Source of the DNA: a virus | Length of the DNA stretch: 64,000 nt | Direction: 5' to 3' (one strand) | IMG/VR virus record: IMGVR_UViG_3300046171_000252 | Coordinates: 143,617-207,616 of that record | In this document: positions 7,927 to 64,000 of the stretch, piece by piece | Layout of the letters: every line of letters starts with the position of its first letter | Position numbering within the stretch: the first letter of the stretch is position 1 | Notes under the pieces: generated by a model | The model's database searches: none | What the model saw: the letters and a program-made list of their open reading frames with translations, nothing else | What the model was told of the DNA's origin: nothing | Made by a program: the position numbers and the translations under genes

Positions 7927-7960
7927 ACGAAAGCACTGAAGAGGTTCCTTTTTTAATGGT

Positions 7961-26012: not shown

Positions 26013-26021
26013 GGAGTTCAA

Positions 26022-34078: not shown

Positions 34079-34081
34079 ATT

Positions 34082-36223: not shown

Positions 36224-37131
36224 GCAAGTTTGTAGTATTGAAGTCTGCGGGACTGGGTAATAGAATTAAGTTATATGTGTCTTACCTGCAGAGGTATGAC
36301 GAACTTTTGATTGAAAAGGAACCTGACTTATATCTCTTTGAGAATTTCAAGTTATGTAATAAGGAAGAGGATATCAAAATCTATCCTTGGACTCATTCTG
36401 GATGGAGACTTCTAGTTAATGAAGATGAGGTTCAATACTGCGACAAATACAAAACTATAGATCAACTCTATAATGATACTCCACAATACTTTATTGATAA
36501 GTATCTTCCTGTATGGCAGAAGTTAAGAATTCAACCAGACATTCAAAAGATTATTGACGACTTTACGCAGGACTGGGACAAGGAAGATATGGTTGGAATC
36601 CATGTTAGAACTAATCTGCCACCAGTTGATGACGGAAGTCGTAGTGTCTGGATGGACTATGAAGGATTTGAGAAAGAGATTGAGAAGTATCCATCTACTC
36701 AGAAGTTTTTCCTTGCCACAGACCATGAACCAATAGTCGGATATTACAAGTCTAGATATCCTGGACAGATTATTACATTCCCTAGGAACGATATTGTTAG
36801 GCACGACAATCATACTGATAATGTGAGTCAGACAATCGGTGCATTTCTTGATATGTATTTGTTGTCTCAATGCTATAAGAAGTTGATTCTTACATGGGGA
36901 ACTTCTTTCTCGGAATGTTCCTGGTGGTTTGGTGGATGTAGAGCTGAAGTGGTGATGCCAACACTTTGGGACAAAATTCCAACAGACTTTTACGATATCA
37001 TTTACAATAAGAAGAATGTGTCCTATAATCTAGGAGGAGAATCAGTCTTTGCTGAGGGTTGTCGCACGTATGCTCCTCTCAGTTTCGGAAATAACTACAC
37101 TATCAAAAATTGGATGGTCCATCATGAATAG
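36220..37131 (+). CDS. Putative O-fucosyltransferase-like glycosyltransferase, paralogue
   Basis: A 303-residue paralogue of the protein at 29995: KSAGLGNRIKLYVSYL, MVGIHVRTNLPPVDD and LTWGTSFSECSWWFGG align with its three blocks. It is about 45 residues longer, with a C-terminal extension. The HVR motif suggests a GT-B enzyme using a GDP-sugar. Coupled by ATGA at its start; its stop lies inside the nadE start region. Confidence 0.63.
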   Translation: MSKFVVLKSAGLGNRIKLYVSYLQRYDELLIEKEPDLYLFENFKLCNKEEDIKIYPWTHSGWRLLVNEDEVQYCDKYKTIDQLYNDTPQYFIDKYLPVWQKLRIQPDIQKIIDDFTQDWDKEDMVGIHVRTNLPPVDDGSRSVWMDYEGFEKEIEKYPSTQKFFLATDHEPIVGYYKSRYPGQIITFPRNDIVRHDNHTDNVSQTIGAFLDMYLLSQCYKKLILTWGTSFSECSWWFGGCRAEVVMPTLWDKIPTDFYDIIYNKKNVSYNLGGESVFAEGCRTYAPLSFGNNYTIKNWMVHHE

Positions 37132-37879
37132 GATAGAAGACTACAACAAATTAAAAATAGGTATTGTAACCTGGATTAAAGATTATGTTGAAAAGAATGA
37201 GATTAAATCCCTTGTTATAGGAGTATCTGGAGGAATTGATTCTGCAGTAGTCTCTACCTTATGTGCAGAAACAGGACTACCAACCTATGTGGTTGCCATG
37301 CCTCTGCATTCTAAAATTGAAAATAGTACATTATCAAGTGATCATTGTAAATTTTTGCAAGAGAGATACGCCAACATCAGGCATAACCGAGTAGAACTGT
37401 CGGGTGTTTATGATCAGTTCATGCACAGTTTAACTTGGTGGACTGGTGATAAATTTAATGGCAATGAACTCTCCAATGCAAATACAAAGTCTCGTCTTCG
37501 TATGGTGACTCTGTATCAAATTGCCGGATCTGTTGGTGGCATCGTTGTCGGCACCGGTAATAAGGTTGAAGATTATGGTGTAGGATTCTACACTAAATAT
37601 GGTGATGGCGGTGTTGATATAGCACCCATCGCAGACTTATACAAAACTGAAGTATGGGAACTTGGAAAGCATCTTAATATAGATAAACGAATTATAGATG
37701 CAAAACCAACGGATGGTCTGTGGAATGATGGACGAACTGATGAAGATCAAATTGGTGCATCCTATGAGGACTTAGAACATGCCATGGAATATGGTAATGG
37801 TCCTGCCGTAAGAATCTTGCATGATTATAACTGCAAGAACAAGCATAAGATGAACCCTATTCCGACTTTTAAATTATGA
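37124..37879 (+). CDS. nadE: NAD synthetase (ammonia-dependent)
   Basis: A 251-residue NadE. IGVSGGIDSAVVSTLCAETG is the SGGxDS pyrophosphatase loop; NTKSRLRMVTLYQIAG, VVGTGNKVEDYGVGFYTKYGDG and IAPIADLYKTEVWELG are the other diagnostic blocks. It amidates deamido-NAD to NAD. I use ATG 37124 because the upstream in-frame start at 37049 is buried in the previous gene. An NAD-making enzyme inside a cluster full of NAD-dependent epimerases and a dehydrogenase is suggestive; NAD supply for infection in general is the alternative. Confidence 0.9.
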   Translation: MNRIEDYNKLKIGIVTWIKDYVEKNEIKSLVIGVSGGIDSAVVSTLCAETGLPTYVVAMPLHSKIENSTLSSDHCKFLQERYANIRHNRVELSGVYDQFMHSLTWWTGDKFNGNELSNANTKSRLRMVTLYQIAGSVGGIVVGTGNKVEDYGVGFYTKYGDGGVDIAPIADLYKTEVWELGKHLNIDKRIIDAKPTDGLWNDGRTDEDQIGASYEDLEHAMEYGNGPAVRILHDYNCKNKHKMNPIPTFKL

Positions 37880-38988
37880 AAATTGGACTTATTGGTGCAG
37901 GAAGACTTGGTATCTGTCTTGCTCTCTTGATTGAAAGAGCAGGATATGATGTCTTAGTGTCTGATATCAGAGAAGACTACGTTTCTAATCTGAATAAAAA
38001 GAGAATTAATACCAATGAACCGGGGGTCGGATGGTATCTCAAACAAACTGAAAGATTTGAAGCAACCACCGACAATCAACGTGTCATCAATGAGTGTGAT
38101 ATTATAATTTGTCTTGTTGCAACTCCTTCTCTTGATGATGGTTCTTATGATGTAAGTTCTGTCTGGAAAGTTGTTGAAGACTTCAAGAGTTCATCTGCAA
38201 AACTAAGTGGTAAAACTTTTATAGTTGGTTGCACGACAAATCCAGGTGACTGCGAACAATTTGCAGAACAATTAGATTCCTTTGGTATTGATGTTTTCTA
38301 TAATCCAGAGTTTATTGCTCAGGGTTCTGTCATCAAAGATTTGCAGAATGCAGACATGGTTCTGATTGGTGGTGAAGGTAAGTATCTTGAAGAGATTAAA
38401 CAGATCTACTTTAAGATTCAAGTCAGTGCACCAAAAATTTATACGATGAGCACTACTGCTGCCGAACTTGTAAAGTTGGCAGTCAATTGTTATTTGACTA
38501 CTAAGATTTCATATGCCAATATGGTGGGCGAGGTCATGTCTCTGTCCGGAATGGGAGATGAAATAGAAGATGTTTTATCTGCTATTGGTGCTGATAGTCG
38601 TGTCGGGTCTAAGTATCTTAAGTTTGGATATGGGTATGGTGGTCCTTGTCTTCCTAGGGACAATCGTGCCTTTGCTGCTCATGCTAAAAAACTTGGATTG
38701 GAATATAATCTTGGGTCAACCACAGATAAATTTAATACCGAACACAATAAGTTTTTGGTTGACTGGGTAGTTCGCAATAATGAAAAAGAACTTCCTTTTG
38801 CTTTTTCATATGTTTCATACAAAGAAGGAACCGATATTGTAGAAGAAAGTCAACAATATCGTCTATGTCTTGAATTATTAAATCTTGGTTATAAAGTTTA
38901 TGTTGTGGATGATCTTGTAGAATCCCAATGTGATGATAGAATTATTTGGGGAATCCCTTCTGAAGAAGTATTTTGGATTGAATTATGA
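37876..38988 (+). CDS. UDP-glucose/GDP-mannose dehydrogenase family protein
   Basis: A 370-residue NAD-dependent sugar-nucleotide dehydrogenase: IGLIGAGRLGICLALLIE (NAD site), VGCTTNPGDCEQFAEQL, FYNPEFIAQGSVIKD, ELVKLAVNCYLTTKISYAN (catalytic Lys/Asn) and GYGYGGPCLPRDNRA with the catalytic Cys. It would oxidise UDP-glucose or a related sugar to a uronic acid. Slightly shorter than bacterial Ugd (about 390-440). Coupled at both ends. Confidence 0.88.
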   Translation: MKIGLIGAGRLGICLALLIERAGYDVLVSDIREDYVSNLNKKRINTNEPGVGWYLKQTERFEATTDNQRVINECDIIICLVATPSLDDGSYDVSSVWKVVEDFKSSSAKLSGKTFIVGCTTNPGDCEQFAEQLDSFGIDVFYNPEFIAQGSVIKDLQNADMVLIGGEGKYLEEIKQIYFKIQVSAPKIYTMSTTAAELVKLAVNCYLTTKISYANMVGEVMSLSGMGDEIEDVLSAIGADSRVGSKYLKFGYGYGGPCLPRDNRAFAAHAKKLGLEYNLGSTTDKFNTEHNKFLVDWVVRNNEKELPFAFSYVSYKEGTDIVEESQQYRLCLELLNLGYKVYVVDDLVESQCDDRIIWGIPSEEVFWIEL

Positions 38989-39702
38989 ATGATATCGGAG
39001 ACAAAAATAAAGCAATACATAAACTCAAAGGACTTCCTCACATCTACTGCATCAATCTAGATGACAAGGTAGATAGATGGGAATCAATGGAGTCTCAGTT
39101 TAAGTATTGGGAGATTGAAAATTATACTCGTGTGTCTGCTTATGATGGTCGTGAGGATGATCTTGGTTCAATGTTGAAGGGACGTTATCCTGATAATATG
39201 TCTTCTGGCGAGGTGGGGTGTGTTACATCTCATCTCAAAGCACTCAAAGAATTTTTGGATTCTGATGAAAAATGTGCTCTTATTATGGAAGATGATTGTG
39301 ATATCAATACTGTTAGTTACTGGCCTTTTTCTTGGAAGAACTTCTTTTGCAAAGTTCCTTATGATTATGATGTAGTTCAACTTGCAATCATTAATCCTGC
39401 ACAGGTTAATGTAAAAATGCATAGAAGGTTTGTCAATGATTTTTCTACAGGCATGTTATTTAATTAATCGTCGGTATGCTCAGAAGTTGCTTGATCTTCA
39501 TACCAGAGGCGATAAATACAAACTTGACAATGGAGTTAAACCTCGTGCTGTTGCCGATGATTTGATTTACAATTCTGGTAATACTTTTGCCATTCCACTC
39601 TTTCTTTATAAGATAGAGTTGGGTTCAGACATTCATGATGCTCATGTTGATGTATTTCATAAAAGCAGTTATGAAGGGTCTATGGAACTTCTGGAAAAAT
39701 GA
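38985..39702 (+). pseudogene. Glycosyltransferase GT25-like, one-base frameshift
   Basis: The first frame shows YCINLDDKVDRWESM, GEVGCVTSHLKALKEFL and CALIMEDDCDIN, the three blocks of GT25 (LPS beta-galactosyltransferase type). It stops early at 39467 after STGMLFN, while the next frame continues from STACYLINRRYAQKLLDLH to 39702. ACAGGCATG at 39450-39451 has one extra G compared with ACAGCATG. With this corrected the gene encodes about 238 residues. Last gene of the glycan cluster. Confidence 0.78.
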
Positions 39703-48481: not shown

Positions 48482-48489
48482 TATAAATA
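48482..48489 (+). promoter_or_regulatory. T4-type late promoter box (TATAAATA)
   Basis: Exact TATAAATA 47 nt upstream of the first tail-fibre gene; the expected late start at the structural block. Confidence 0.75.
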
Positions 48490-48535: not shown

Positions 48536-50762
48536 ATGGCAACACCTATTAGAATTAAAAGGTCAGCTGTTGCTGGCAAGAAACCTACTACCTCAGACTT
48601 ACAGTTAGGCGAATTAGCTGTAAACTTTAATGATGGTAAAGTATTTCTCAAACAGGATACTAGCGGTGTCGGTGTTGGCACAAGAATTGTAGAAGTTGGA
48701 GCAGGAACTACAACTTTTGCCGGTAAGACTTTATTCGTTACTGAGAATGGTAATGATGATAATGATGGACTGAATGAAGGCAATGCAAAAGCAACGATTA
48801 AATCTGCTGTTGCCGCTGCTTCTGAGGGAGATACGGTTAAAGTATTTCCAGGAACATATGTAGAAAATAACCCAATTAATTTACCGGATAATGTTTCCGT
48901 AGAGGGAACTGAACTTCGTCGTTGTGTTGTCACACCACAAAATGGCGGACAAGATTTATTTTATGTTAGTCAAGGATGCCATCTAACAGACCTGAGTTTT
49001 GTTGGTGCTGCCGCAACTAATAATTCTGCTGCTGTTTCTTTCAGACCACTTGCTGGAGTATCATCTGATAGATTCTTTGATGCTGCCAGACTCATCCGTG
49101 AGAATATTGAATTTATTGCAGATGAAACTATTGGATATCTTGAGAGCACTGACTATCAGAATCCTGCAATCAGTGTAGATAATGCTTCTTTCAGAACAAA
49201 CATCAACCACGCAATGCGTTCCACTTGCCACGACATTACAAGAGGTGGCAACTCTAAATCTATTGGTGCTGGTCAATCATACTTCACTGGTGATAGTTTA
49301 ACCTCTGGAATTGGTGCAACACATATTGCTGCTCTGGAGTATTCGGTTGGTATTGCCAGATCATGTATCAACAATATTGGATTCTCAAAAACAAGTGGCG
49401 GAAACTATCAGACAAACTATACTCAGGTCAAGGACTTAAGTATTCAGAGTGATGGTGCATCCTATGATATTGGTAATTGTGCCAATGTTCTTTCGGCAGT
49501 CACTGTCTGTGTCGGTATTGTAACTGGTATTATTCAGAATGGTATTAATGGAGTTGCAGCAGCCACAGGATTCACCACAAACTTCCCTGGCAATAGTGGA
49601 ACAATCAACTCTGGCATTCTGACCGCATCACTGAGTCCTTTACAGGGAACTGGTATTATTACCAAAGGTCCTTACGTTAGAAACTGCACTAACTTTATTC
49701 CTGATAGTATCGGAGCAAGAATAGATGGATTCAATGCTGATGAAGGAGACCAAATAAACAGAATTGGTGTTCAAGGTTCATTCAACGTTGATTCTTATAC
49801 TCAATATAATCAAGGTGGTATCGGAGTTTCGGTAAGTAACGGAGCATATTGTCAGTTAGTTTCGCTCTTCACCATCTGTAATGACATTGCAGTTTCTGCC
49901 AGTGGCGGTGGTCAGTTAGATTTAACTAACTCAAACTCATCTTTCGGATCTCGGGGTCTTATTGCATTTGGTAGATCTGATGAAACATCCAAGGGCATTG
50001 ATCGTTATACAGGAATCGTCACTTCAACTGCCGCAGTAAGTCAGAGTCAGATTGTTGTTAGTGGTGTTGGAAGTAATAGACCCTATGATGGTCAGGCAAT
50101 TTTCTTTGATAGAAAATATAATGTAGTCAGAAAGATTGATATTACGAATGGTGGGTCTGGATATACTTCGGCACCAACTGTGACGGTTGCTGCACCTACT
50201 GGACCCGGAGTTGCCGTTCGTGCAACTGCGAGCGCAACAGTTGAGAATGGTGTTGTTACTGCAGTCAGAATATTAAGTAATGGTTCACAATATGAAGTTG
50301 TTCCTGCCGTCACTTTCTCTGGGGGGTGGTGCAGATGCTGCTGCCACGGCAGTGCTTGATCCAATTTATTATGAAGTTTCCTCGTCAACTGAACCATCTG
50401 CCGGTATCTCAACACTTACTTTGGTTCAGAATCTAAATAATGAAGTTGGAGTTGGATCAACAGCATTCTTTGCCAGACAGAGTTTACAAATTGTAAGTTC
50501 GCATTCATTCCAATACATCGGTGCAGGAAACACTATTGAACTAGCATATCCATCTCAAGGCGGAGTTGTTATTCAAGATAATGAAGTAATTGAAACTGAT
50601 GGTGCAAGAGTTGTATACACGAGCACCGACCAATCTGGTAATTTCAGAATTGGTGATGGTGTTGAAATCAATCAATCAACCGGAACAATATCCGGAAGCA
50701 TTTATGTCAAGAGTTTATTCACACAAGTAACACCATTCATTCTTGCATTAGGAGGAGATTAA
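48536..50762 (+). pseudogene. Tail fibre/spike protein with beta-helix, one-base frameshift
   Basis: An approximately 741-residue structural protein. The N-terminus (TPIRIKRSAVAGKKP; LQLGELAVNFNDGKVF) is the attachment module common to cyanophage fibres. ENGNDDNDGLNEGNAKATIK, then VFPGTYVENNPINLPD is the start of a pectate-lyase-like right-handed beta-helix. The frame breaks in a G6 run at 50321-50326: with five G the reading continues from VTFSGGGADAAATAV to the stop at 50762. It is the first gene after a late box, and likely recognises or cuts a surface polysaccharide; substrate unknown. Confidence 0.8.
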
Positions 50763-50766
50763 TCAA

Positions 50767-51108
50767 ATGGCAGTCGCAGCAGCAGCAGTAAACCAGTTCC
50801 AGACAATCACACACGTTGTTGGTATTAATACTGTTGGAATATACACAGCACCAACTGGATATACTGGTGTTGTTCTTTTAGCACAGGTGACAAACACCGA
50901 CTCAGTAACTAAGACTGTAAGTTTTGGTCATCGCAGAAGTGGAACTGATACAGAAATTGTTAAGAACTTGGCAATTCCTGCAAGTGATACTGCCAATCTT
51001 CTTCCGGGAAAGTTGGTTGTAGAAACTGGTGACACATTGACTATGGTTGGTAGCACTACCTCAACTTTGAAAGTTATTACTAGTGTTTTAGAAACATCAA
51101 ATCTCTAA
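50767..51108 (+). CDS. Small structural (fibre-associated) protein, 113 aa
   Basis: A 113-residue beta-rich protein (GIYTAPTGYTGVVLLAQVTN; NLLPGKLVVETGDTLTMVG). Similar strands occur in the C-terminal knob of the 1821-residue fibre encoded next, so it is probably a virion component of the fibre assembly. GGAGG precedes ATG 50767. No catalytic motif. Confidence 0.72.
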   Translation: MAVAAAAVNQFQTITHVVGINTVGIYTAPTGYTGVVLLAQVTNTDSVTKTVSFGHRRSGTDTEIVKNLAIPASDTANLLPGKLVVETGDTLTMVGSTTSTLKVITSVLETSNL

Positions 51109-51128
51109 TATTTTAATAAGTAGGTAAA

Positions 51129-54100
51129 ATGGCAGCACCAATTAGATTCCTTAGTGGAAGACAACAACAACAAAAAATTGGTATAGAAGGAAGTACTGAT
51201 AACCAAAAGGTATTAGAGGTTGTTGGTCAGGTTGGTATTGGCACAACAGTTTTTGAACCTTCCGTACAACTAGAAGTTCGCGGTGATGCATCAGTAAGTG
51301 GTGTTCTCACAGCAGGTAGTTTAAATATTACTGGAGATGGTGGTGTTCCTGCCAGTCTGACTGTTGAAACTTTAAATGCTACTGGTGTTTCTACATTTGG
51401 TGGTGCTGTTGATGTAAATGCCGGACTAGATGTAGATGGACAGTCTGATTTAGACGAATTGGTTGTTGCCGGTGTTGCAACCTTTAGTAATGCTGTAGAT
51501 ATTAATAGCACACTAGATGTAGATGGAGATACTCAATTAGATGATCTGAATGTTGCCGGTGTTTCCACATTCAGTTCTGTTGTCAATGCGACAGCTGCCG
51601 TCAATGCGACAGATATAATTAAAGGATACAAATATACTGCTGTTCCTTATGGAAGCACGGTTACACTTGCTGTCACTGTTGCAAGTAAGGATTCCACTCA
51701 CAGATATAATGGAACGGGAAGTGGAAATGGTTATGTAATTGATGGCATTCAGGCTCCATTTCTAACCCTAACACCTGGAAGAACATATAGATTCACGAAC
51801 AATAATACTGGGAGTCATCCTCTTAAGTTTTATCTTGAAGCAGATAAGACGACACTATATGAAACGAATGTTAATTTTCAGGATACATATACTGAAATAA
51901 CAGTAACTGATGAGACTCCAATAGTTCTCCATTATCAATGCACTGCTCATGGATACATGGGTAATGCGGTTCAGACAAATGCAAATGTTGTCAATACAAA
52001 CTATCCGGCAACAATTAGAAGCACCTTAGATGTTTCTGGTGTTTCAACCTTTACACAATTAGATGTCAGCACTGGTGGATTAGATGTTGATGGACTCACT
52101 AATTTAGATGAAGTCGTCGTTGCTGGTGTATCTACCTTTACTGGAAATATCGTTGCTGTTTCGGCAGAATTCAGTGGTAATGTAACGATTGCAGGAACCT
52201 TAACTGCGGAAGATAAGACCAATATAGATTCACTTGGAATTGTAACTGCAAGAACAGGAGTTAGAGTCGATGCTGGTGGTTTAATTGTAACTGCCGGTGT
52301 ATCTACATTCACTGATTCTGTAGACATTAATAATGGTGTTGGTGTAGTTGGTGGATTAACCGCAGATTCTTTAACTATCTCTGGAGTCACCACAGGAATT
52401 AATGCTGCCGGCATTTCATCATTCGTCAGAATAGATGTAGATGGTCAGGCTGATTTAGATGAACTGGTTGTTGCCGGTGTTGCTACATTCCAAGGTGCCG
52501 TTAATTTTGATGTTAATAGTGAAATTAATATTGGAACTGGCGTCACTATACTTGCTAATAACTTACATGTAACTGGTATTGTTTCTGCGGCACAGTTCAT
52601 CGGTGATGGTTCTGGTATTACGAATCTCCCTGGTATTAGTACCGTTGGTTCTTCATCTCTTACTGATGTTAATGTTTCTGGAACAACCACGACTGTTCAG
52701 TTAAGAGTCAGTGGTGTTGGAACTGCAGAAAAATTCTCTGTTAGTACAGGTGGATTTGACGTTGATGGTCAATCAGATCTTGATGAACTGGTTGTTGCCG
52801 GTGTATCAACCTTTAGTGCAAATACTTTTATCAATGCAGACCTTTCTGTCACCGGAGACATTGGTGCATCAGGAATCATTACTGCCACAGGAATTCAGTT
52901 AGTTGCCGGTAGTGGACTTGATGTTGGTGCCGTTGGTGTTCTGACTGCACTTTCAGTAGATGTCAGCACTGGTGGTATTGATGTAGATGGACAAGCAACC
53001 TTAGATGAAGTTGTAGTTGCTGGTGTTGCTACATTCAGTGCTCTTGCAGATGTTAATAATAGATTAGATGTTGCTGGTGGTGCTAATATTGATCAGTTAA
53101 ATGTTGCTGGTATTGCATCCTTCACTCAGTTAGATGTAAGCACTGGTGGTATTGATGTAGATGGACAGGCAACCTTAGATGAAGTTGTAGTTTCCGGTGC
53201 TTCAACATTTACTGGCACAGTTAAGATTGATGGAGCATTAGACATTGGTGTTGCCGGTGTTGATGTAGAGGGACTTACCAACTTAGATGAACTGATTGTT
53301 GCTGGTGTATCCACCTTTAGTAGCACTATTAATGGTAATGTAACTGGTAATCTAACTGGAACTGCATCAAATGCATCAGGTGCAACTGGAGACTTCTCAA
53401 TTGCAGATAAGATTGTTCATACTGGTGACACTAATACTGCTATCAGATTCCCTGCTGCCGATACATTCACTGTAGAGACTGGTGGTAGTGAAAGAGTTCG
53501 TGTAACTTCTGCCGGTAATGTTAATTTCTTAGGAAGTCTTGTTAATGTTAATGCGACTGGAGTTTCATCATTCGTCCAATTAGATGTTAGTACCGGTGGT
53601 TTAGATGTTGATGGACAAACTGATTTAGATGAACTTCAGGTTGCTGGTGTCTCCACATTCTCTGCCAAGGCAGTATTTAATACCGCATACCCATCCATAG
53701 ATGCCGACAATGAAATTCAAGTCGGCACTGCGATTCAACTGGGTAAAGCAGGTGTTATAACTGCAACATCATTCTCTGGTTCTGGTGCTAACCTGACTGG
53801 TATTGCCGCAACGGATCATGTATCCACATTTGACCTGGTTGTTGCCGGTGTCTCTACATTCGTTGGTTTTGCAACCTTTAGAGATGGATTACATGTTACT
53901 GGTGTATCTACCTTCGCTAATGCTGAATTCAATAATGTAACCACAGACTTCAATCTCACTGTTACAGGTTCAGCAGCTCTTAATGGACCTGTTACCCTAG
54001 GTTCGGATACATCAAATAGTATTCACTTCGGGGGTCGCGTTGACACTGGTATTACCCCTAAAGAAGATGATAAATACGATTTAGGTTCTTCCTCCTTGAA

Positions 54101-56594
54101 ATGGAAAGATCTTTATCTTGATGGGACTGCAAATATTGATGGACTAAATGTAACTGGTGTCTCTACATTCAATGATGATGTAAGAATACTTGCTGGTGGA
54201 TTAGATGTTACTGGTGTTGTTACTGCCACATCATTCTCTGGTTCTGGTGCAAACTTAACTGGTATTGGAACTCAAGCTACTAATGTTCAGGCACAATCAT
54301 TAACTGTTGCCGGTATTTCTACATTCAATAATGATGTAATCTTCAATAGTAGTGCAAACATTGTATTTGACAAGTCTGCTGATGCACTTGAGTTTGCGGA
54401 TACTGCAAAGGCAGTCTTTGGTGATAGTGATGACCTACAGATTTATCATAATAGTCATAGTTACATAGACCATGTAGGTGCAAATAACCTTCATATTAGA
54501 AATCAGACTGCTGACCAAGATATAACCATTCAGACTGATGATGGTTCTGGTAATCTTGCCACTTACTTCCAAGCTGAAGGTGCTAGTGGTAAAGCTTCAC
54601 TTCATTTCTACGGTGCTAAAAAACTTGCTACCAATACTGGTGGAATAGATGTTACTGGTGGCGTTAATGCAACTGGTGTCATAACTGCCACATCATTTGC
54701 TGGTGATGGTTCTGCACTGACCGGTATTGCCGCAACGGCCCATGTATCCACATTTGACCTAGTTGTTGCCGGTATATCCACATTCAATGATGATGTAAGA
54801 ATTACTGCTGGTGGCATTAATGCTGCAGGTGTTGTAACTGCCACCTCATTCTCTGGTTCTGGTGCAAACTTAACTAGTGTTGATGCCGCCACTCTGGATG
54901 GTGTTGACTCTACTTCCTTCCTTCGCAGTGATGCTGCTGACATTAAGACCTCTGGTAATCTAACATTTAATGATAATATTAAAGCTAGATTTGGTACTAG
55001 TAGTGACCTTGAGATTTACCATAATGGTACTGACTCTCACATCTCGAACACTAACGGTACTTTATACATCGATCAGGGCGTTGATGACACTGAGCTCGTT
55101 CTGAGATGCGACAATGGTTCTGGTGGATTAACGCAGTATATCCAATTGAATGGCGGTAATGGTGAAGTAAGACTTTATCATAACACTGGAGGTTTTGATG
55201 CAAAATTATCAACCAAATCTAGTGGAATAGATGTTAATGGTGGCGTTAATGCAACTGGTGTTATAACTGCCACATCATTCTCTGGTTCTGGTGCTAACCT
55301 GACTGGTATTGGAACGCAAGCTACTAATGTTCAGGCACAATCATTAACTGTTGCCGGTGTATCTACATTCAATGATGATGTAAGAATTACTGCTGGTGGT
55401 ATTAATGTTAGTGGTGTTTCAACATTCTCTGGAATTGCGACTCACATTGATACTTTACATGGACAAACATTAAAGATTGCCGGTGTTTCTACATTCCATG
55501 ATGCGGTTACAATAACAAAAGCATTAAATGCTTTAAATGTTAATGTTTTAACCACAAATCCCGCTATTAACATACAAAGAGATGGAACTACAAAAGGAAG
55601 TATTACGCCAGCATATGGTGAGTTTAGAGTACAAACAAGCAGTTCTGAAGATTTAGCACTTCAAGTAAATTCTTCTGGTGGAACTACTGGTGAAATATTT
55701 TTGAAGAGCAGTTCTCGCGAAATTCTTAAGGCGAGTCATAATGGTGGAGTTGCAGTTTCTGGAATTATTACCGCAACGGCAATTAATGTAGTTGCAGGTA
55801 GTGGACTAGATGCTGGTAATACTGGTGTTATTACTGCCACATCATTTGTTGGTGATGGTTCTGCACTGACCGGTATTGCTGCTGGTGGATCAGGAGAGTT
55901 TAATACTGGAATTACAAGTTCTAGGCAAATTGTTCCACTATCTTTTGAGTCAACGGTATTTACTTTCCCATCAACAGCAGGTAAACAATATGTAATTGAG
56001 TCTATTAATGTTGCGAATGTTGATGAGTCTGTTGGTGTCGGAACAACAGTTAATATTATCGCATCAATTCAGGATGCAACAGCAGGAGAACAAACTTATA
56101 TTGCTTATAATGTTCCTATCGTAACTGGTGGTTTGATTGAATTACTTAAGAATCCAATTGTTGCCGGTCCATCGGATGTAATTAGGATGTGGTCTACAAA
56201 TGATGCATATGTCGGAGTCAATAATGCCGCAGATGTTTATATGAATTTCACCGAACATAGTGATAGTACTGACTTTATTAGTAAGTTTGCCTCTACCGCA
56301 TCCGTTACTAGTACTGATACAACCACCCTATATACATCAACTTCTAATCCAACTGTAATTGAAAAAATTGGACTTGCAAATAGAACCGATATTGGTGATT
56401 TCCCAATTTCTATTAAAATTACAAACGGAACATCAACATCTTATCTTGCCAAAGATTTAATCATACCAAGATACTCTACTGTGGATATATTGGATAGACA
56501 AAAGAGAATTGAGACTGGTGCTAAAATTGAAGTTGAGGTTGGATCAACATCAACAATTGATATTATTATTGCCGGTAAGAAAATAACATCCTGA
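51129..56594 (+). CDS. Very large repetitive tail-fibre protein, 1821 aa
   Basis: The protein begins AAPIRFLSGRQQQQKIGI, then carries dozens of copies of a short beta-repeat with the core GLDVDGQ.DLDELVVAGVSTF. Around residues 188-282 a cupredoxin-like domain is inserted (His230, Cys271, His274, Met277). A middle region holds segments such as DSDDLQIYHNSHSYIDH seen in other cyanophage fibres, and the C-terminal 230 residues form a non-repetitive domain (FTFPSTAGKQYVIESINVA). It is likely the long adhesin that reaches the host surface. The DNA repeats here are prone to recombination and misassembly. Confidence 0.85.
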   Translation: MAAPIRFLSGRQQQQKIGIEGSTDNQKVLEVVGQVGIGTTVFEPSVQLEVRGDASVSGVLTAGSLNITGDGGVPASLTVETLNATGVSTFGGAVDVNAGLDVDGQSDLDELVVAGVATFSNAVDINSTLDVDGDTQLDDLNVAGVSTFSSVVNATAAVNATDIIKGYKYTAVPYGSTVTLAVTVASKDSTHRYNGTGSGNGYVIDGIQAPFLTLTPGRTYRFTNNNTGSHPLKFYLEADKTTLYETNVNFQDTYTEITVTDETPIVLHYQCTAHGYMGNAVQTNANVVNTNYPATIRSTLDVSGVSTFTQLDVSTGGLDVDGLTNLDEVVVAGVSTFTGNIVAVSAEFSGNVTIAGTLTAEDKTNIDSLGIVTARTGVRVDAGGLIVTAGVSTFTDSVDINNGVGVVGGLTADSLTISGVTTGINAAGISSFVRIDVDGQADLDELVVAGVATFQGAVNFDVNSEINIGTGVTILANNLHVTGIVSAAQFIGDGSGITNLPGISTVGSSSLTDVNVSGTTTTVQLRVSGVGTAEKFSVSTGGFDVDGQSDLDELVVAGVSTFSANTFINADLSVTGDIGASGIITATGIQLVAGSGLDVGAVGVLTALSVDVSTGGIDVDGQATLDEVVVAGVATFSALADVNNRLDVAGGANIDQLNVAGIASFTQLDVSTGGIDVDGQATLDEVVVSGASTFTGTVKIDGALDIGVAGVDVEGLTNLDELIVAGVSTFSSTINGNVTGNLTGTASNASGATGDFSIADKIVHTGDTNTAIRFPAADTFTVETGGSERVRVTSAGNVNFLGSLVNVNATGVSSFVQLDVSTGGLDVDGQTDLDELQVAGVSTFSAKAVFNTAYPSIDADNEIQVGTAIQLGKAGVITATSFSGSGANLTGIAATDHVSTFDLVVAGVSTFVGFATFRDGLHVTGVSTFANAEFNNVTTDFNLTVTGSAALNGPVTLGSDTSNSIHFGGRVDTGITPKEDDKYDLGSSSLKWKDLYLDGTANIDGLNVTGVSTFNDDVRILAGGLDVTGVVTATSFSGSGANLTGIGTQATNVQAQSLTVAGISTFNNDVIFNSSANIVFDKSADALEFADTAKAVFGDSDDLQIYHNSHSYIDHVGANNLHIRNQTADQDITIQTDDGSGNLATYFQAEGASGKASLHFYGAKKLATNTGGIDVTGGVNATGVITATSFAGDGSALTGIAATAHVSTFDLVVAGISTFNDDVRITAGGINAAGVVTATSFSGSGANLTSVDAATLDGVDSTSFLRSDAADIKTSGNLTFNDNIKARFGTSSDLEIYHNGTDSHISNTNGTLYIDQGVDDTELVLRCDNGSGGLTQYIQLNGGNGEVRLYHNTGGFDAKLSTKSSGIDVNGGVNATGVITATSFSGSGANLTGIGTQATNVQAQSLTVAGVSTFNDDVRITAGGINVSGVSTFSGIATHIDTLHGQTLKIAGVSTFHDAVTITKALNALNVNVLTTNPAINIQRDGTTKGSITPAYGEFRVQTSSSEDLALQVNSSGGTTGEIFLKSSSREILKASHNGGVAVSGIITATAINVVAGSGLDAGNTGVITATSFVGDGSALTGIAAGGSGEFNTGITSSRQIVPLSFESTVFTFPSTAGKQYVIESINVANVDESVGVGTTVNIIASIQDATAGEQTYIAYNVPIVTGGLIELLKNPIVAGPSDVIRMWSTNDAYVGVNNAADVYMNFTEHSDSTDFISKFASTASVTSTDTTTLYTSTSNPTVIEKIGLANRTDIGDFPISIKITNGTSTSYLAKDLIIPRYSTVDILDRQKRIETGAKIEVEVGSTSTIDIIIAGKKITS

Positions 56595-56606: not shown

Positions 56607-59600
56607 ATGGGAATAAGAAATGATGTATTTGGTTTAGAGCAGATTTACCAACTGCAGATAGAAGGGCAATGGTCCACGAAAGGAGATGTCTGGTTAACTC
56701 CGAGTCCTTTTGGTGCTCAGGCTCCTTTTGGTTACTTTAGTGGTGGTTCTAGTAATAGATCAGTAGTACAACGTATTGATTATTCTAATGATACAGCAAC
56801 GGCATCGGTAAGAGGGCCATTAAGTGCTGGTAGATATAATCATGCAGCAACAGGTAATGCTAATTTTGGATACCATAGTGGTGGTAGTCCTGCAAAATCA
56901 ACAGTAGAACGTATTGATTATGGTAATGATACTGCCACGTCATCACCAAAAGGGCCATTAAGTGCTGGTAGAAGAAACTTATCGGCAACAGGTAATGCTT
57001 CTTTTGGTTACTTTGGTGGTGGTAGTCCTGCTCCAAAAACAACAATAGATCGTATTGATTATTCTAATGACACCGCAACGGCAGCAGTCAAAGGACCATT
57101 AAGTTCTGCTAGATATTGGTCAGCGGCAGCAGGTAATGCTTCATTTGGTTACTTTGGTGGTGGATATATTGATAATACTCCTACAAAATCAACAGTAGAC
57201 CGTATTGATTATTCTAATGACACCGCAACAGCAGCAGTAAAAGGACCATTAAGTGTTGCTAGATATCGACTGGCAGCAACAGGCAATTCTTCTTTTGGAT
57301 ACTTTGGTGGTGGCAATGGTCCATTATCATCAGTAGACCGTATTGATTATAGTAATGACACCGCAACGGCAGCAGCAAAAGGACCATTGAGTGCTGCTAG
57401 ATATTCTATAGCAGCAACAGGTAATGCTTCCTTTGGATACTTTAGTGGTGGTTATGATAAAACATTAGTAGACCGTATTGATTATTCTAATGATACTGCA
57501 ACAGCAGCAGTCAAAGGACCGTTAAATTATGACTATATTAAAACTGCGGCATCAAGTCCTAAGGCAAATGCAGTCACAGGTTTAACAGTACTCTCAGCAT
57601 CATCACCAGCAAGAGAAAATGTAGTCCCACAAGGAACTGACTTTGGTTACTTTGGTGGTGGACGTAATCCAGCTGGATCTGGTACTGTATCAACAGTAAA
57701 CCGTATTGATTACTCAAATGATACAGCAACTGCATCAACAAAAGGACCATTAAGTAGTGCTAGATATAATGTTGCAGCAATAGGTAATGCTCCATTTGGA
57801 TACTTTGCTGGTGGTAATCCTTCAAGTGCAGTATCCACAGTAGACCGTATTGATTACTCTAATGACACCGCAACAGCAGCAGTCAAAGGACCATTAAGTG
57901 CTACTAGTGATGGTGCTGCTACTGTAGGCAATTCTGATTTTGGTTATTTTGCTGCTGCTGGTAATAAATCAACAGTAGACCGTATTGATTATACTAATGA
58001 CTCTGCAACGGCATTAGTCAGAGGACCATTAAGTTATTCAAGTTATGGTAGGGCAGGAACAGGTAATGCTGATTTTGGATATATTGGTGGAGGTGGTCCT
58101 ACATTATCAACAGTAAATCGTATTGATTATTCTAATGATACGGCAACGGCATCACCTAAAGGACCATTAAGTCTTGCTAGACGTACTATGGGAGCAACAG
58201 GTAATAGTTCTTTCGGATACTTTGGTGGTGCTTTCCCCGGTCCATATTCAACAGTAGACCGTATTGATTACTCCAATGATACTGCCACGGCATCAGTAAA
58301 AGGACCACTAAGTTCTGCTAGAGGTCAATTTGTAGCAACAGGTAATGCTTCCTTTGGTTACTTTGGTGGTGGATATGATGATAATCCCAATCAAACATCA
58401 ACAGTAGACCGTGTTGATTATTCTAATGACACCGCAACGGCAGTAGTCAAAGGACCATTAAGTGAAAAGATTCAGAACCATGCAGCATCAAGTTCCAGAG
58501 CAAATGCAATACCACTCAAAGGACCTGGTAGCTTAGAAGTTCCAATATCATTGGGTGCTTTTAGTCGTAATTTTGGACCACAAGGAACTGACTTTGGATA
58601 CTTTGGTGGTGGTGGTCCTGCTCCAAAATCAACAATAAACCGTATTGATTATTCTAATGACATGGCAACGACAGCAGTCAAAGGACCATTAGATGTTGCT
58701 AGAGCTTACTTAGCAGCAACCGGTAATCAAAACTTTGGTTACTTTGGTGGTAGTGTTGGTCCAAAATCATCAGTAGAACGTATTGATTATACTAATGATA
58801 CTGTAGAAGCATCACCAAAAGGACCATTGAGTGTTGCTAGATATTCTTTGGCAGCAACAAGTAATTCTTCCTTTGGTTACTTTGGTGGTGGAGGTCCTGG
58901 CCCATTCTCAACAGTAGATCGTATTGATTATTCTAATGATACTGCAACGGCATCAGTCAAAGGACCATTGAGTGTTGCTAGACATGGTTTGGCAGCAACA
59001 AGTAATTCTTCCTTTGGTTACTTTGGTGGAGGTATGCCTGGTAGTATTTCAACAGTAGATCGTATTGATTATTCAAATGATACCGGAACAACACCAACAA
59101 AAGGACCATTGAGTGCTGCTAGAAGATACTTGGGAGCAACGGGTAATGCCGACTTCGGTTACTTTGGTGGTGGAGGTCCTGGTAGTATTTCAACAGTAGA
59201 TCGTATTGATTATACTAATGATACTGCAACGGCATCAGTCAAAGGACCATTGAGTTATGGTAGAGATAACATAGCAGCAACGGGTAATGCTAATTTTGGT
59301 TATTTTGCTGCTGGTCCTAGTCCCAGTGCTGCATTATCAACAGTAGACCGTGTTGATTACTCTAATGACACCGCAACAGCATCAGTAAGAGGACCATTAA
59401 GTGTTAATAACTATGCTATGGGAGCAACAAGTTCCAGAGCCAATGGAATTCCGACTGAAAATATTGTAAATTATGCGGCAGGAACTCTAGGGACTCCTAA
59501 CACCGGTTACTTTGGTGGTGGTGAACCCGGATACATATCATTTGTAGAACGTATTGATTACTCTAATGACTCCGCATCGCCAGTAACAAAAGGACCATTA

Positions 59601-61376
59601 AGTGCTGGTAAATCTTTTATGGGAGCAACAAGTAGTGGTTCCTTTGGTTACTTTGGTGGTGGTTATGCAACATCAATTGGTAATCAATCAACAGTAGACC
59701 GTATTAGTTACCTAAACGATACTACAACGGCAGTAGTAAAAGGTCCATTGACTGGTGTTAAAGATGAATTAACAGCAACAGGCAATGCTTCCTTTGGATA
59801 CTTTGGTGGTGGACAATTGAATGGTTCTACTACACAAACAACAATAGACCGTGTTGATTTTTCTAATGATAGTGCCAATGCCGTAGCAAAAGGACCATTA
59901 AGTGTTGCTAGATATGGTTTGGCAGCAACCGGTAATCAAAACTTTGGTTACTTTGGTGGTGGTGGTCCTGGTTTTAAAAGCACAGTAGATCGTATTGATT
60001 ATTCCAATGATACGGCAAATGCATCACCAAAAGGGCCATTAAGTGCTGGTAGATATCGACTTGCAGCAACAGGTAATGCTTCCTTTGGTTATTTTGGTGG
60101 TGGTCGTAAATCACCTGGTGCGACAGTAGTATCAACAGTAGACCGTATTGATTATTCGAGTGATACTGAAACGGCAGTAGTAAAATCACCATTGCTTGTT
60201 GTTAAATTTGCTCATGCAGCAACTGGTAGTGCTGACTTTGGTTACTTCGGTGGTGGTGCTCCTGGACCATTATCAACAATAGACCGTATTGATTATTCTA
60301 ATGACACCGCAGCATTATCGGCAAAAGCGCCATTTACTTCTGGAAATGGTTATAGGAAGGAATTAACAGCAACAAGTGCCAGAGCAAACGGATTCGGTCA
60401 AATATCGGGTCAAATATTAGGTCCAGCACTGGTTTCTAATGCCGATGCAGTCGCAGGGTCATTTAATCCAACAACGTTTGGTTACTTTGGTGGTGGTCGC
60501 ACTACTCCTTCTGATATGTCAACAGTAGACCGTATTGATTACTCCAATGATACTGCCACGGCATCAGTCAAAGGACCATTAAGTCTTGCTAGAAAGCAAC
60601 TAGGTGCAGTAGGAAATTCATTTTTTGGATATTTTACGGGTGGTGAAACTCCTTCTGTAGTATCAAATGTAGACCGTATTGATTACTCCAATGACACCGC
60701 AACGGCAGTAGAAAAAGGACCATTAAGTGCTCCTAGAAGATATGGTGCCAATGCCGGTAATTCTGATCATGGATATTGGGTTGGTGGACTTACTCCTGGT
60801 ACTACATTAGCATCATTAGTAGATCGTATTGATTACTCTAATGACACTCCAACGACATTAGAAAGAGGACCATTGAGTCTTGCTAGAGCTATTCTAAGTG
60901 GAACTGGCAATGCTGACTTTGGTTACTTTGGTGGTGGTAATGTTCCTTCTCCTAGTGTCACATACTCTACAGTAGACCGTATTGATTATGCTAATGACAC
61001 TGCAACGGCAGTAGCAAAAGGACCATTAAGTGTTGGTAAATATGGTTCAGCAGCAACAGGTAATGCTTCATTTGGTTACTTTGCTGGTGGTTATACTCCT
61101 AGTGATCTTTCATCAGTAGATCGTATTGATTATTCTAACGACACCGCAACAGCATCACCAAAAGGACCATTGAGTCTTGCCAGAGATCAATTGGGAGCAA
61201 CAGGTAATGCTTCATTTGGTTACTTTGCTGCTGGTGCTACTTCTAGTGCAGTAACAACAGTAGACCGCATTGATTACTCTAATGACACTGCAACAGCACC
61301 GGCAAAAGGACCACTAAGTGTTGGTAGATGGACTCTAGCAGGAACCTCAGCAGCAGCAAATGCACTTCCACAATAG
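56607..61376 (+). CDS. Giant repeat protein with five blocks of six motifs, 1589 aa
   Basis: After a short N-terminus, the protein consists of 30 repeats of about 45-50 residues, each with FGYFGGG, then STVDRIDYSNDTATA, then KGPLS and an AATGNA turn. The repeats are grouped in five blocks of exactly six, separated by linkers that end each block with a SSRANAIP-like segment. Six repeats per block fit a six-bladed beta-propeller, so the whole could be five tandem propellers, perhaps glycan-binding. This kind of repeat is known from cyanophage tail proteins; the propeller is my inference. Confidence 0.82.
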   Translation: MGIRNDVFGLEQIYQLQIEGQWSTKGDVWLTPSPFGAQAPFGYFSGGSSNRSVVQRIDYSNDTATASVRGPLSAGRYNHAATGNANFGYHSGGSPAKSTVERIDYGNDTATSSPKGPLSAGRRNLSATGNASFGYFGGGSPAPKTTIDRIDYSNDTATAAVKGPLSSARYWSAAAGNASFGYFGGGYIDNTPTKSTVDRIDYSNDTATAAVKGPLSVARYRLAATGNSSFGYFGGGNGPLSSVDRIDYSNDTATAAAKGPLSAARYSIAATGNASFGYFSGGYDKTLVDRIDYSNDTATAAVKGPLNYDYIKTAASSPKANAVTGLTVLSASSPARENVVPQGTDFGYFGGGRNPAGSGTVSTVNRIDYSNDTATASTKGPLSSARYNVAAIGNAPFGYFAGGNPSSAVSTVDRIDYSNDTATAAVKGPLSATSDGAATVGNSDFGYFAAAGNKSTVDRIDYTNDSATALVRGPLSYSSYGRAGTGNADFGYIGGGGPTLSTVNRIDYSNDTATASPKGPLSLARRTMGATGNSSFGYFGGAFPGPYSTVDRIDYSNDTATASVKGPLSSARGQFVATGNASFGYFGGGYDDNPNQTSTVDRVDYSNDTATAVVKGPLSEKIQNHAASSSRANAIPLKGPGSLEVPISLGAFSRNFGPQGTDFGYFGGGGPAPKSTINRIDYSNDMATTAVKGPLDVARAYLAATGNQNFGYFGGSVGPKSSVERIDYTNDTVEASPKGPLSVARYSLAATSNSSFGYFGGGGPGPFSTVDRIDYSNDTATASVKGPLSVARHGLAATSNSSFGYFGGGMPGSISTVDRIDYSNDTGTTPTKGPLSAARRYLGATGNADFGYFGGGGPGSISTVDRIDYTNDTATASVKGPLSYGRDNIAATGNANFGYFAAGPSPSAALSTVDRVDYSNDTATASVRGPLSVNNYAMGATSSRANGIPTENIVNYAAGTLGTPNTGYFGGGEPGYISFVERIDYSNDSASPVTKGPLSAGKSFMGATSSGSFGYFGGGYATSIGNQSTVDRISYLNDTTTAVVKGPLTGVKDELTATGNASFGYFGGGQLNGSTTQTTIDRVDFSNDSANAVAKGPLSVARYGLAATGNQNFGYFGGGGPGFKSTVDRIDYSNDTANASPKGPLSAGRYRLAATGNASFGYFGGGRKSPGATVVSTVDRIDYSSDTETAVVKSPLLVVKFAHAATGSADFGYFGGGAPGPLSTIDRIDYSNDTAALSAKAPFTSGNGYRKELTATSARANGFGQISGQILGPALVSNADAVAGSFNPTTFGYFGGGRTTPSDMSTVDRIDYSNDTATASVKGPLSLARKQLGAVGNSFFGYFTGGETPSVVSNVDRIDYSNDTATAVEKGPLSAPRRYGANAGNSDHGYWVGGLTPGTTLASLVDRIDYSNDTPTTLERGPLSLARAILSGTGNADFGYFGGGNVPSPSVTYSTVDRIDYANDTATAVAKGPLSVGKYGSAATGNASFGYFAGGYTPSDLSSVDRIDYSNDTATASPKGPLSLARDQLGATGNASFGYFAAGATSSAVTTVDRIDYSNDTATAPAKGPLSVGRWTLAGTSAAANALPQ

Positions 61377-61410: not shown

Positions 61411-62064
61411 ATGGGTATAATGATCGCACTCCCCTGTCACGGGGGAATTGTGAATGAAAAGACAACTATGAGTTTGTTTAATCTAGGCAAACTCTTAGTA
61501 AGAAATAATATTCCGCACGGTCTTCTCACTCAGGCAAACTCTTCCTTGATTACTCATGGAAGGTCTAAGTGTGCTAACTTTTTTATCAACAATACAGATC
61601 ATGAATATTTGTTTTTCCTTGATAGTGATATTGGATTTAATCCAGAAGATGTGCTAAGATTACTGAGTCATAATGAAAACATTGTTTCTGGCACATATCC
61701 AATGAAGACAATACCCATTCGGTATTGTGCTGATGTTCTTCAACCAGAAGAACGCAAGGGTGATTTACTCAAGGTTGGTGGAAATGGTATGGGATTTGTG
61801 ATGATTCATCGCAATGTCTTTGCCAATATCGCACAGAAGTTTCCATATCTTAAATACATACCATCAACTAAAGATAGTAATTATCCACCAACAGAAGCAG
61901 AGATGAATAACTCATATCATTACTTTGCAGAAGAAAAGATTGATGACAGTTTTGCATCAGAGGATAAAAGTTTCTTTTATCGTGCTAGAATGTCGGGGTA
62001 TACTCATTGGCTAGATACTACAATCAAATTACAACACGTCGGTTCACACGTCTTTACTGAATAA
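61411..62064 (+). CDS. Putative glycosyltransferase beside the fibre genes, 217 aa
   Basis: A 217-residue GT-A-like protein: IALPCHGGIVNEKTTMSLF, YLFFLDSDIGFNPEDVLRL with the DSD metal site, and a C-terminal AEEKIDDSFASEDKSFFYRA. Located right after the fibre genes, so it may glycosylate a virion protein; this is inference from context. Confidence 0.72.
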   Translation: MGIMIALPCHGGIVNEKTTMSLFNLGKLLVRNNIPHGLLTQANSSLITHGRSKCANFFINNTDHEYLFFLDSDIGFNPEDVLRLLSHNENIVSGTYPMKTIPIRYCADVLQPEERKGDLLKVGGNGMGFVMIHRNVFANIAQKFPYLKYIPSTKDSNYPPTEAEMNNSYHYFAEEKIDDSFASEDKSFFYRARMSGYTHWLDTTIKLQHVGSHVFTE

Positions 62065-62066
62065 TT

Positions 62067-63821
62067 ATGAAATCTGGTTCAACCGAAACTGCATATCATT
62101 TCCTTGCAGAACATTATCAATTTCCTGAAGATATTGAAGTAACTCATTTTCCAGAGGAACTGAAAAAATCTGACAAAAAATATAAAATTCTCTGGGCACA
62201 TCATGCATATGATCAACCAGTGTTTATTAATTTTGACCATAAAACAGTAGATCATATTGTTACGCCATCACACTGGGCAAAAGAAAATATTGTTAAATAT
62301 CACAATGTTCCGAAGGATAAAGTTACAGTAATTCCAACAGGTGTTTCTGACAAATTTACTTTCTCAGAAAATAAAACAAAAACTTTTATTCATACTTCTG
62401 TTCCTTATAAAGGTTTAGAATTAATGCCTGAAATTATTAGGAGAATTCATCAGAAACATCCAGATGCAAAGTTTAAAATCTTTTCATCAATGTCATTATA
62501 TGGTCAACAGAATGATCCTTATATTGAATTATATGAGGAGTTGAAGAAACTTCCTAATGTAGAATACTCTGCGGCAGTCGATCAAGAAGAATTGATTGAG
62601 TGCTATCAAGAATCTGCATTTTTTATTCATCCAAATATTTGGGAGGAAGTTTTCTGTGTTTCTATGGCAGAGGCAATGAAATGTGGTACATATCCAATTA
62701 TCACAAATATAGGAGCACTCTCCGAAGTTGCCGGTGATAACTTTGCTTCGGTTGTTCCTATTGATGGAACCCGAACACCCGCAAAATATGAAGTTACTGA
62801 AACCTTTCTAAATACATTTGCAGAGATTTGCTGTACTGCTTTAGATTATTTTGAGGGAGACAGAACATATTATAACCAAATCTCAAAATCTCTTTCTAAT
62901 CATATTTCACAGAAGTGTGACTGGAAAAAAATTGCACACCAGTGGAAAAAACTGATTACTAAAATTACAAGTGGAGAACCCATGACTACAGAAAACACTG
63001 AACTGTCTTATAATCCCGTCACTTCTGAGCAGGCAGTGATGGATGATGAATATCTTCAGCAAGCATTTGCCAATGTTCTGAGATGGGAAGATAGTGATAA
63101 GGAACTTGCACAGGGCAGAACTAATTTCCAGTTAGAAAAGTTTGCACTTCTTGATACTCATACCCTTCCTGTTGCCTTTGAGAACACTCTGAAGTCTCGT
63201 CGTCAGATGGCAGAGGGTTATATGTACAAACTCATTGAGATGAAAGAAAAGGTCCGTGAGTTTGACTTTAAGTGGGCAGATAAGGATAAAGCACAACCAA
63301 TTTTTTGGGAAGAAGGTGGACCCGGTGGTGGTTCCAAGAAACTGTGTTGGTTTGATTTAGATGAACTTACACTGTCTCATTATCTGAAGTCTTCTGAACT
63401 TGAGATTCGTGATCGTCTTCACCAGATGCAACATCTAGATAAGATTCTTGATAAATTGATGGAAAAGAATGATGGCAAACCAGTCACCCGAGAACAATTC
63501 CTTGATGCTGATGGGCAGTATTGGGAAAGAAGATTTGCCGATCAGGCTATGGATGAAATGATCGCGGCACAAACTGGCATCTCTATTGGTAACCTACACA
63601 GTATGCGTCGTGCTTCTGCACCTGCAATTGTTGATAAGAGAAATGAACTGCCAGAAGGTTATATGCCTCTGAATAAGATTCTTGAAAGTCCTCAAGGTAA
63701 GATGGACTTCCTGAATGATCTGCAGAAGAAAGTTCTCACAGGTATCCAAGAAGTTACTGGTGAAAATCTTGGTATGATTTCCGGTTCTCCAGAAGAGGAG
63801 CAAAAGAAACTCCAAGGTTGA
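62067..63821 (+). CDS. Glycosyltransferase fused to a cyanophage hypothetical domain, 584 aa
   Basis: Residues about 1-305 are a GT-B (GT4-like) enzyme: VTPSHWAKENIVKYHNVP, VTVIPTGVSDKF, FIHPNIWEEVFCVSMAEAMK (E-x7-E donor site) and YPIITNIGALSEVAG. Residues about 306-584 are an unrelated helical domain (MTTENTELSYNPVTSEQAV onward) with heptads and SEEEQ-type acidic ends. GGAG followed by ATG at 62983 sits exactly at the junction, so a separate second gene may have existed. Either a real fusion or loss of a stop codon; the second domain resembles stand-alone cyanophage proteins from memory. Confidence 0.75.
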   Translation: MKSGSTETAYHFLAEHYQFPEDIEVTHFPEELKKSDKKYKILWAHHAYDQPVFINFDHKTVDHIVTPSHWAKENIVKYHNVPKDKVTVIPTGVSDKFTFSENKTKTFIHTSVPYKGLELMPEIIRRIHQKHPDAKFKIFSSMSLYGQQNDPYIELYEELKKLPNVEYSAAVDQEELIECYQESAFFIHPNIWEEVFCVSMAEAMKCGTYPIITNIGALSEVAGDNFASVVPIDGTRTPAKYEVTETFLNTFAEICCTALDYFEGDRTYYNQISKSLSNHISQKCDWKKIAHQWKKLITKITSGEPMTTENTELSYNPVTSEQAVMDDEYLQQAFANVLRWEDSDKELAQGRTNFQLEKFALLDTHTLPVAFENTLKSRRQMAEGYMYKLIEMKEKVREFDFKWADKDKAQPIFWEEGGPGGGSKKLCWFDLDELTLSHYLKSSELEIRDRLHQMQHLDKILDKLMEKNDGKPVTREQFLDADGQYWERRFADQAMDEMIAAQTGISIGNLHSMRRASAPAIVDKRNELPEGYMPLNKILESPQGKMDFLNDLQKKVLTGIQEVTGENLGMISGSPEEEQKKLQG

Positions 63822-63822
63822 T

Positions 63823-64000
63823 ATGAACCAGAAGATTATTGTTGCTGATGACTTTTATGATATGGCACATCCATATTATAAAGGCATCGTAGAAGGTGAA
63901 CCAATTTTTACTGATGAAGCACCCCAGAAAATTTCACATCTTCTGGGTCGTGAGATAAAAGTAGAGAACTTATTTAATGAAGTTGCTTCATCCAATACTC
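63823..64000 (+). CDS. 5' part of an unrecognised protein (cut by the window end)
   Basis: ATG 63823 begins MNQKIIVADDFYDMAHPYYK and runs in frame to the window end. The VADDFYD start resembles the N-terminus of oxygenase-like (DUF6445-type) proteins of cyanophages; too little is visible to be sure. Confidence 0.5.
   Translation, partial: MNQKIIVADDFYDMAHPYYKGIVEGEPIFTDEAPQKISHLLGREIKVENLFNEVASSNT

Follow-up and report, generated by a model that had tools for sequence, protein, structure and literature searches.

Six-bladed kelch propellers such as those of Keap1, KLHL12, KLHL20 and the designed SAKe6 are rings of four-stranded blades with a double glycine in strand B, in which the chain begins with a B strand and ends with an A strand. 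The kelch motif is defined by this double glycine plus a spaced tyrosine and tryptophan. Phages also encode kelch propellers: phage vB_PcaM_CBB has three such proteins (CBB_550, CBB_552 and CBB_554), and mass spectrometry confirmed CBB_552 in the virion (PMC5259590). Two further kinds of repetitive protein are relevant. Pereira and Lupas (2022, PMC9218822) described highly repetitive beta-propellers with amplified, near-identical blades, sometimes enough for several rings, and tandem arrays of whole BACON domains, shaped by domain duplication and horizontal transfer, occur near phage tail genes (PMC6949934). Taken singly, kelch propellers of phages, tandem domains of tail proteins and propellers of repetitive sequence are already known; we found no report in the open-access literature of arrays quantised in six-blade units with exchange of whole cassettes.

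The protein studied here resembles each of these systems in part. It shares blade architecture, strand order and a predicted ligand face of B-C and D-A loops with the Keap1-type propellers, but is only about 20% identical to them, lacks the characteristic kelch tryptophan and a BTB domain, does not reach the Pfam Kelch thresholds, and appears to consist of five tandem propellers whose blades are near-repeats within a block. It matches the CBB proteins in fold (A0A1L2CVR7, A0A1L2CVR1), but the matched CBB chains are 265-285 aa long, about one propeller, without a repeated array or near-identical blades. A described relative is in Synechococcus phage S-SKS1 (AGH31792 and its neighbours; M4QT40, M4QQ43), where three genes of the same family (39% identity) have an N-terminal peptide of the same type and blocks of six joined by the linker GGASERIKGSRT, but two propellers per gene rather than five. 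In the S-SKS1 record (HQ633071.1, record ends, 200-208 kb) these genes are deposited as several short, frame-broken ORFs, and the start and end of the record lie within one of them and overlap by 24 nt. Unlike the arrays of Pereira and Lupas, which repeat over their whole length and have, for instance, 15 (7+8) or 47 blades, the present family is quantised in sixes, has linkers between rings and is found in more than 100 viral genes. BACON arrays differ in fold, and are made of single domains rather than rings of sub-repeats.

The window, the 64,000-nucleotide stretch analysed here, forms the final 64 kb of a virus record of 207,616 bp. The features considered below are the following.

48482 to 48489, plus strand: TATAAATA, resembling a T4 late promoter, 54 nt upstream of the tail-fibre block; a weak candidate (6 matches in the window, 4.65 expected)
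48536 to 56594, plus strand: tail-fibre block directly upstream of the propeller gene (48536-50359, 50280-50762 and 51129-56594; phrog_17885, phrog_30742 tail fiber protein)
56607 to 61376, plus strand: gene of the five-propeller protein, a single ORF of 1589 aa (phrog_19111, function unknown)
56607 to 56726, plus strand: N-terminal peptide of about 40 aa, locus-specific, IRNDVFGLEQIYQLQIEGQW; candidate docking peptide, low model confidence
56727 to 57575, plus strand: predicted propeller 1, repeats 1-6, ending in AASSPKANAV
57576 to 57641, plus strand: linker 1 (...PQGTD)
57642 to 58514, plus strand: predicted propeller 2, repeats 7-12
58515 to 58592, plus strand: linker 2 (LKGPGSLEVPISLGAFSRNFGPQGTD)
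58593 to 59453, plus strand: predicted propeller 3, repeats 13-18, the block used for structure prediction
59454 to 59501, plus strand: linker 3 (TENIVNYAAGTLGTPN)
59502 to 60395, plus strand: predicted propeller 4, repeats 19-24
60396 to 60476, plus strand: linker 4 (...GPALVSNADAVAGSFNPTT)
60477 to 61373, plus strand: predicted propeller 5, repeats 25-30, ending in TSAAANALPQ and then the stop
61411 to 63821, plus strand: two glycosyltransferase-like genes, between the five-propeller gene and the next kelch paralogue

The gene has a Shine-Dalgarno-like GAGGG 5' of its ATG, and its product matches the phrog_19111 profile over five stretches (E 6.8e-263). The repeat unit reads FGYFGGG-(variable)-STVDRIDYSNDTATASxKGPLS-(variable)-LAATGNAS. 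We counted 30 cores of the RIDYSND type (R[IV][DS][YF]xND) and 30 strands of the FGYFGGG type ([FTH]GY[FWIH]); both counts agree exactly with the five blocks of six repeats proposed in a preliminary description of this DNA. Within blocks the distance from core to core is 45-51 aa, and it rises to 76, 77, 67 and 82 aa at the four block crossings (core 6 to 7, 12 to 13, 18 to 19 and 24 to 25). The borders given in that description (57570, 58500, 59450 and 60390) lie within about 15 nt of the block ends that we computed, at 57575, 58514, 59453 and 60395. It had also proposed that an ASSxANAxP-like segment closes each block, and such a segment is present at all five block ends (AASSPKANAV, AASSSRANAIP, GATSSRANGIP, TATSARANGF and AGTSAAANALPQ followed by the stop). 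Rather than being a separate element, this segment supplies its own block with the sixth A strand: read in kelch strand order, a block starts with B-C-D, runs through A-B-C-D five times and ends in a single A (AxSxxANA).

That the six-fold grouping reflects tandem six-bladed beta-propellers had been suggested from the repeat count, and the predicted structure of one block supports it. We modelled block 3 (58584-59453) with AlphaFold2, using an alignment of 64 blocks, and obtained a six-bladed propeller with a pLDDT of 93.1 and a pTM of 0.92, in which residues 277-283 form a strand. Foldseek matched this model over its full length to SAKe6, Keap1 and KLHL12 (TM 0.82-0.86, both lengths about 290); in the viral library, it matched proteins of S-SKS1 as well as kelch proteins from further phages and from poxviruses. 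A phmmer search against solved structures had the designed six-bladed kelch propeller SAKe6 as its top match (E 6.5e-9), with KLHL12 at E 5.8e-5. Sequence profiles are less generous: no Pfam Kelch family matched the window protein up to E=1, and the relatives reach 20.9 bits against Kelch_4, below its cut-off of 21.6. The double glycine (columns 6-7 of the repeat) and a tyrosine (column 21) are nearly invariant, and the conserved tryptophan is absent. The model supports a six-bladed kelch-type beta-propeller by fold, not by Pfam threshold. A prediction for the N-terminus with propellers 1 and 2 (659 aa, 16 rows) was poor (pLDDT 55, pTM 0.44), so the arrangement of neighbouring propellers as a string is assumed; AlphaFold is known to collapse likewise on long repetitive propellers (PMC9218822).

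If each block closes a ring, the number of repeats per block should be the same in related genes, and the comparison of relatives showed no free variation in block size; only the number of blocks changes. In a first set of 18 relatives and paralogues, all 69 of 69 blocks had six repeats, with one divergent repeat filled in by hand in each of the near-identical genes L008 and L010. A widened search gave 135 ORFs that are complete and no shorter than 250 aa, and 123 of them have an exact multiple of six repeats: 6, 12, 18, 24, 30 and 36 repeats occur in 6, 84, 13, 8, 7 and 5 ORFs, corresponding to 1 to 6 propellers. After clustering at 80%, 114 of 127 clusters consist purely of multiples of six. 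Nearly all of the non-multiples are frame breaks or contain divergent blades that the profile missed. We set aside L015/L019 and L063 as frame breaks, S-SKS1 because its frames are broken in the deposited record, and L157, L153, L055 and L054 because they have 12 or 18 repeats once the missed blades are counted by eye. The real candidate exceptions are L152, with 7 repeats, and L143, with a first block of 4 followed by a broken frame; in both cases the contig is short, comes from a metagenome and has repeats that resemble one another, and assembly collapse is the likely cause. The S-SKS1 gene that runs across the record ends is the remaining possible exception, with a count of 6+6 or 6+7. The nearest annotated divergent relatives, in the AG-345 single-cell viruses (about 27% identity), have three blocks of six when counted by eye. 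A query of the viral contigs with the AG-345-type protein returned no relatives, and a search of 84,980 bacterial and archaeal genomes with the cassette gave pattern matches, none of which was confirmed.

Whole propellers also appear to move between genes. The syntenic kelch genes encode 5/5/5 propellers in the window virus and 4/6/4 in L001, while the flanking DNA is 85-89% identical. Linkers are position-specific, and a four-block relative has a hybrid linker whose first part resembles linker 2 and whose last part resembles linker 3 (IPLKGPGILEVPVSMA/TGTYGTPNT), as if exactly one propeller had been gained or lost with the breakpoint inside the linker. Single propellers are 92-98% alike in pairs of genes whose similarity elsewhere is 36-70%, and the edges of the shared stretch lie in the linkers. 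For example, block 1 is 96% identical between L005 and L007, where other block pairs are 37-50% identical, and the edges of the BLAST match fall at the block ends (match at 7710-8600 of L007, 96%; block 1 of L007 at 7719-8594). Block 2 and block 3 are each 98% identical between L007 and L010, while blocks 1-2 of L010 are 100% identical to those of L008; block 3 of L052 is 92% identical to that of L003. Within the window virus itself, propeller 2 is 84% identical to block 2 of the paralogue at G000:C1:1157-5869, and the other block pairs of these two genes are 58-69% identical. Because repetitive genes in metagenome assemblies may be chimeric, the exchange cases at 96-100% are weakened; the 84% case, which lies within one genome, and the 92% case are less open to that explanation.

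Variation within the propellers is concentrated in two places. We computed entropy column by column over 382 repeats and found peaks at columns 8-13 (the B-C loop, 2.0-3.7 bits, of variable length) and columns 36-41 (the D-A loop, 2.0-3.6 bits). The columns of the strands and of the A-B and C-D loops are mostly below 2 bits; isolated columns, for instance 15, 30, 42 and 47, are higher. The bottom face of a kelch propeller, which bears the binding pocket, is built from the B-C and D-A loops (PMC6650413); judged from the repeat alignment, the variability would therefore lie on one face of the ring. Five pairs of genes sharing a cassette differ at 57 of 351 amino-acid sites in these loops and at 33 of 1022 sites in the scaffold. 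In the two more diverged pairs, the only ones of the five in which the excess is clear, pN equals or exceeds pS in the loops (0.15-0.30 vs 0.08-0.26), and in the scaffold it is much lower than pS (0.06 vs 0.25; 0.02 vs 0.17).

The neighbourhood of the gene is one of tail-fibre genes. The stop of the preceding tail-fibre gene is 12 nt from the ATG of the five-propeller gene. That preceding gene (51129-56594) encodes a protein of 1821 aa with many short repeats of the LDVDGQxxLDELxVAGVSTF type. The first tail-fibre gene (48536-50762) appears to be broken up: phrog_17885 is matched by each of two frames, 607 and 160 aa long, that overlap. Its equivalent in L050 is a single ORF of 1053 aa. Among the relatives, L050 has a baseplate-wedge/tail-fibre connector and tail fibres ahead of its kelch gene, and in L120 a baseplate/tail-fibre connector gene is one ORF away. 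The window virus has three kelch genes (5+5+5 propellers), of which the two paralogues come next, beyond the junction of the record ends. Over 814 bp these ends (63187-64000 of the window and G000:C1:1-814) agree at 99.3% identity, which makes the map circular in effect and places the three genes close to one another. The third paralogue (L019:7336-12058, that is, G000:C1:7336-12058) has a frame break near 8270-8300, in blade 6 of propeller 1, and its remaining four propellers are open in another frame; decay, switching and sequencing error are alike possible. With genes for ribonucleotide reductase, transaldolase, purM and SAICAR synthetase, and with T4-type tail-fibre and baseplate families, the virus looks like a large cyanomyovirus near S-SKS1.

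We think it likely that the protein is a virion-borne, multivalent adhesin made of exchangeable six-bladed kelch-type propeller cassettes, five in this case; its virion location and ligand are proposed from the genomic context, the precedent of CBB_552 and the analogy with BACON arrays. Five independent propellers, joined by linkers, would form a rod or string behind the short locus-specific N-terminal peptide. Blade 1 of each ring would combine strands B-C-D from the start of the block with the closing A strand from its end, as in Keap1, and the ability of every block to close a ring of its own would be the reason why the repeats come in sixes. In each propeller, about 70 residues of the B-C and D-A loops would make up a binding face. 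Each of the three kelch loci has its own conserved N-terminal peptide, relatives included, and this peptide may dock the protein; as the sole query against annotated phages, it retrieved S-SKS1 and chance matches only. Docked in this way, the protein and its two paralogues may be carried next to the tail fibres, on the tail or baseplate, and give the virion a multivalent grip on glycans or other structures of the host surface. Host recognition would then diversify by mutation of the loops, by conversion between blades, and by gain, loss and exchange of whole cassettes through recombination in the linkers.

Several side observations concern genes for sugar and protein modification. A cluster of about twenty consecutive genes of polysaccharide type (160-370 aa) lies at 19796-39467 of the window, in a phage genome; those sampled encode sugar-nucleotide enzymes of the epimerase and UDP-glucose dehydrogenase types, GT11-like glycosyltransferases and a methyltransferase. 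Sulfotransferase genes are close to kelch genes in three lineages. In four lineages a 2OG-Fe(II) oxygenase gene lies just 3' of the kelch gene (L019:12088, L066:10567, L088:7852 and L120:12484), and its product might modify the adhesin, for example at loop prolines.

The propellers could instead be a passive structural or decorative element of the virion, such as a whisker, a sheath or a capsid decoration, with the loops varying under relaxed constraint rather than under selection for a ligand. We regard this as rather improbable. That the hairy jumbo phage CBB has kelch proteins, one of them (CBB_552) a virion component, would suit such a role, as would the Foldseek matches to kelch-like proteins annotated 'virion structural protein' in Noxifer, PhiPA3 and Phabio, and loops that drift while the scaffold and linkers are conserved. 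However, relaxed constraint does not account well for hypervariability on one face, where the more diverged pairs have a pN no lower than pS, or for the exchange of propeller cassettes, and the genes adjoin tail-fibre genes, not head genes. An intracellular role, as a multivalent scaffold or host-takeover factor like the poxvirus kelch proteins, is very unlikely in our judgement: the bottom faces of eukaryotic kelch propellers do bind proteins, and poxvirus proteins are among the fold matches, but the cullin-ubiquitin system that those proteins serve is absent from bacteria, the window protein has no BTB-like partner domain, and the gene is within a tail-fibre block and has relatives in which the propeller is joined to LamG or Gly-rich tail modules.

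The remaining alternative concerns the number six itself. Had the blocks arisen as fresh whole-block copies, blades should show position-specific ancestry, and there is no such signal: between blocks, blades at the same position are hardly closer than blades at different positions (0.570 vs 0.559; 0.207 vs 0.210 in variable columns), and in several genes blades at differing positions are more than 90% identical. Although block number does move in whole-block steps, it is therefore extremely improbable that the six-fold grouping is a by-product, devoid of structural meaning, of the recent duplication of one ancestral six-repeat block, since the blocks are not fresh copies, blade number stays at six despite active recombination of blades, and six is kept in relatives of only about 27% identity. 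Ongoing recombination at the level of blades with a constant blade number argues instead for selection on ring closure.

Taken further, the adhesin reading would extend to a combinatorial system in the large marine viruses of this group, a proposal that we make tentatively and hold with less than even confidence. Each virus would usually have three genes, each encoding a locus-specific N-terminal peptide and 2 to 6 swappable propellers, for up to 90 blades and 15 hypervariable faces per virus; whole rings would be swapped, gained and lost through the linkers, with ring size held at six by selection. The adhesin reading itself suggests a route by which marine viruses may alter which cells they adhere to. 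The protein would also be a natural modular binding scaffold whose evolving unit, the closed six-blade ring, is readable from sequence, so that selection on ring closure is directly measurable in the wild. For phrog_19111, a family that is annotated with no function and occurs in hundreds of marine viral contigs, there is now a predicted structure and a likely role.

The cassette is not confined to the usual gene. Relatives replace propellers with, or join them to, lectin-like Laminin_G_3 domains or a Gly-rich tail protein. In marine virus AG-345-L05 (L054:13605-16352) a Laminin_G_3 domain lies between two propellers, and two sister genes there have a third propeller in that place. A single six-bladed propeller of this family occurs inside a Gly-rich tail-type protein and inside a Laminin_G_3 protein (L068:4087-7206 and L062:839-2521). 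L051:1156-1443 (G001) is a remnant of a gamma-type kelch gene, in which the N-terminal peptide and about one repeat are followed by a stop.
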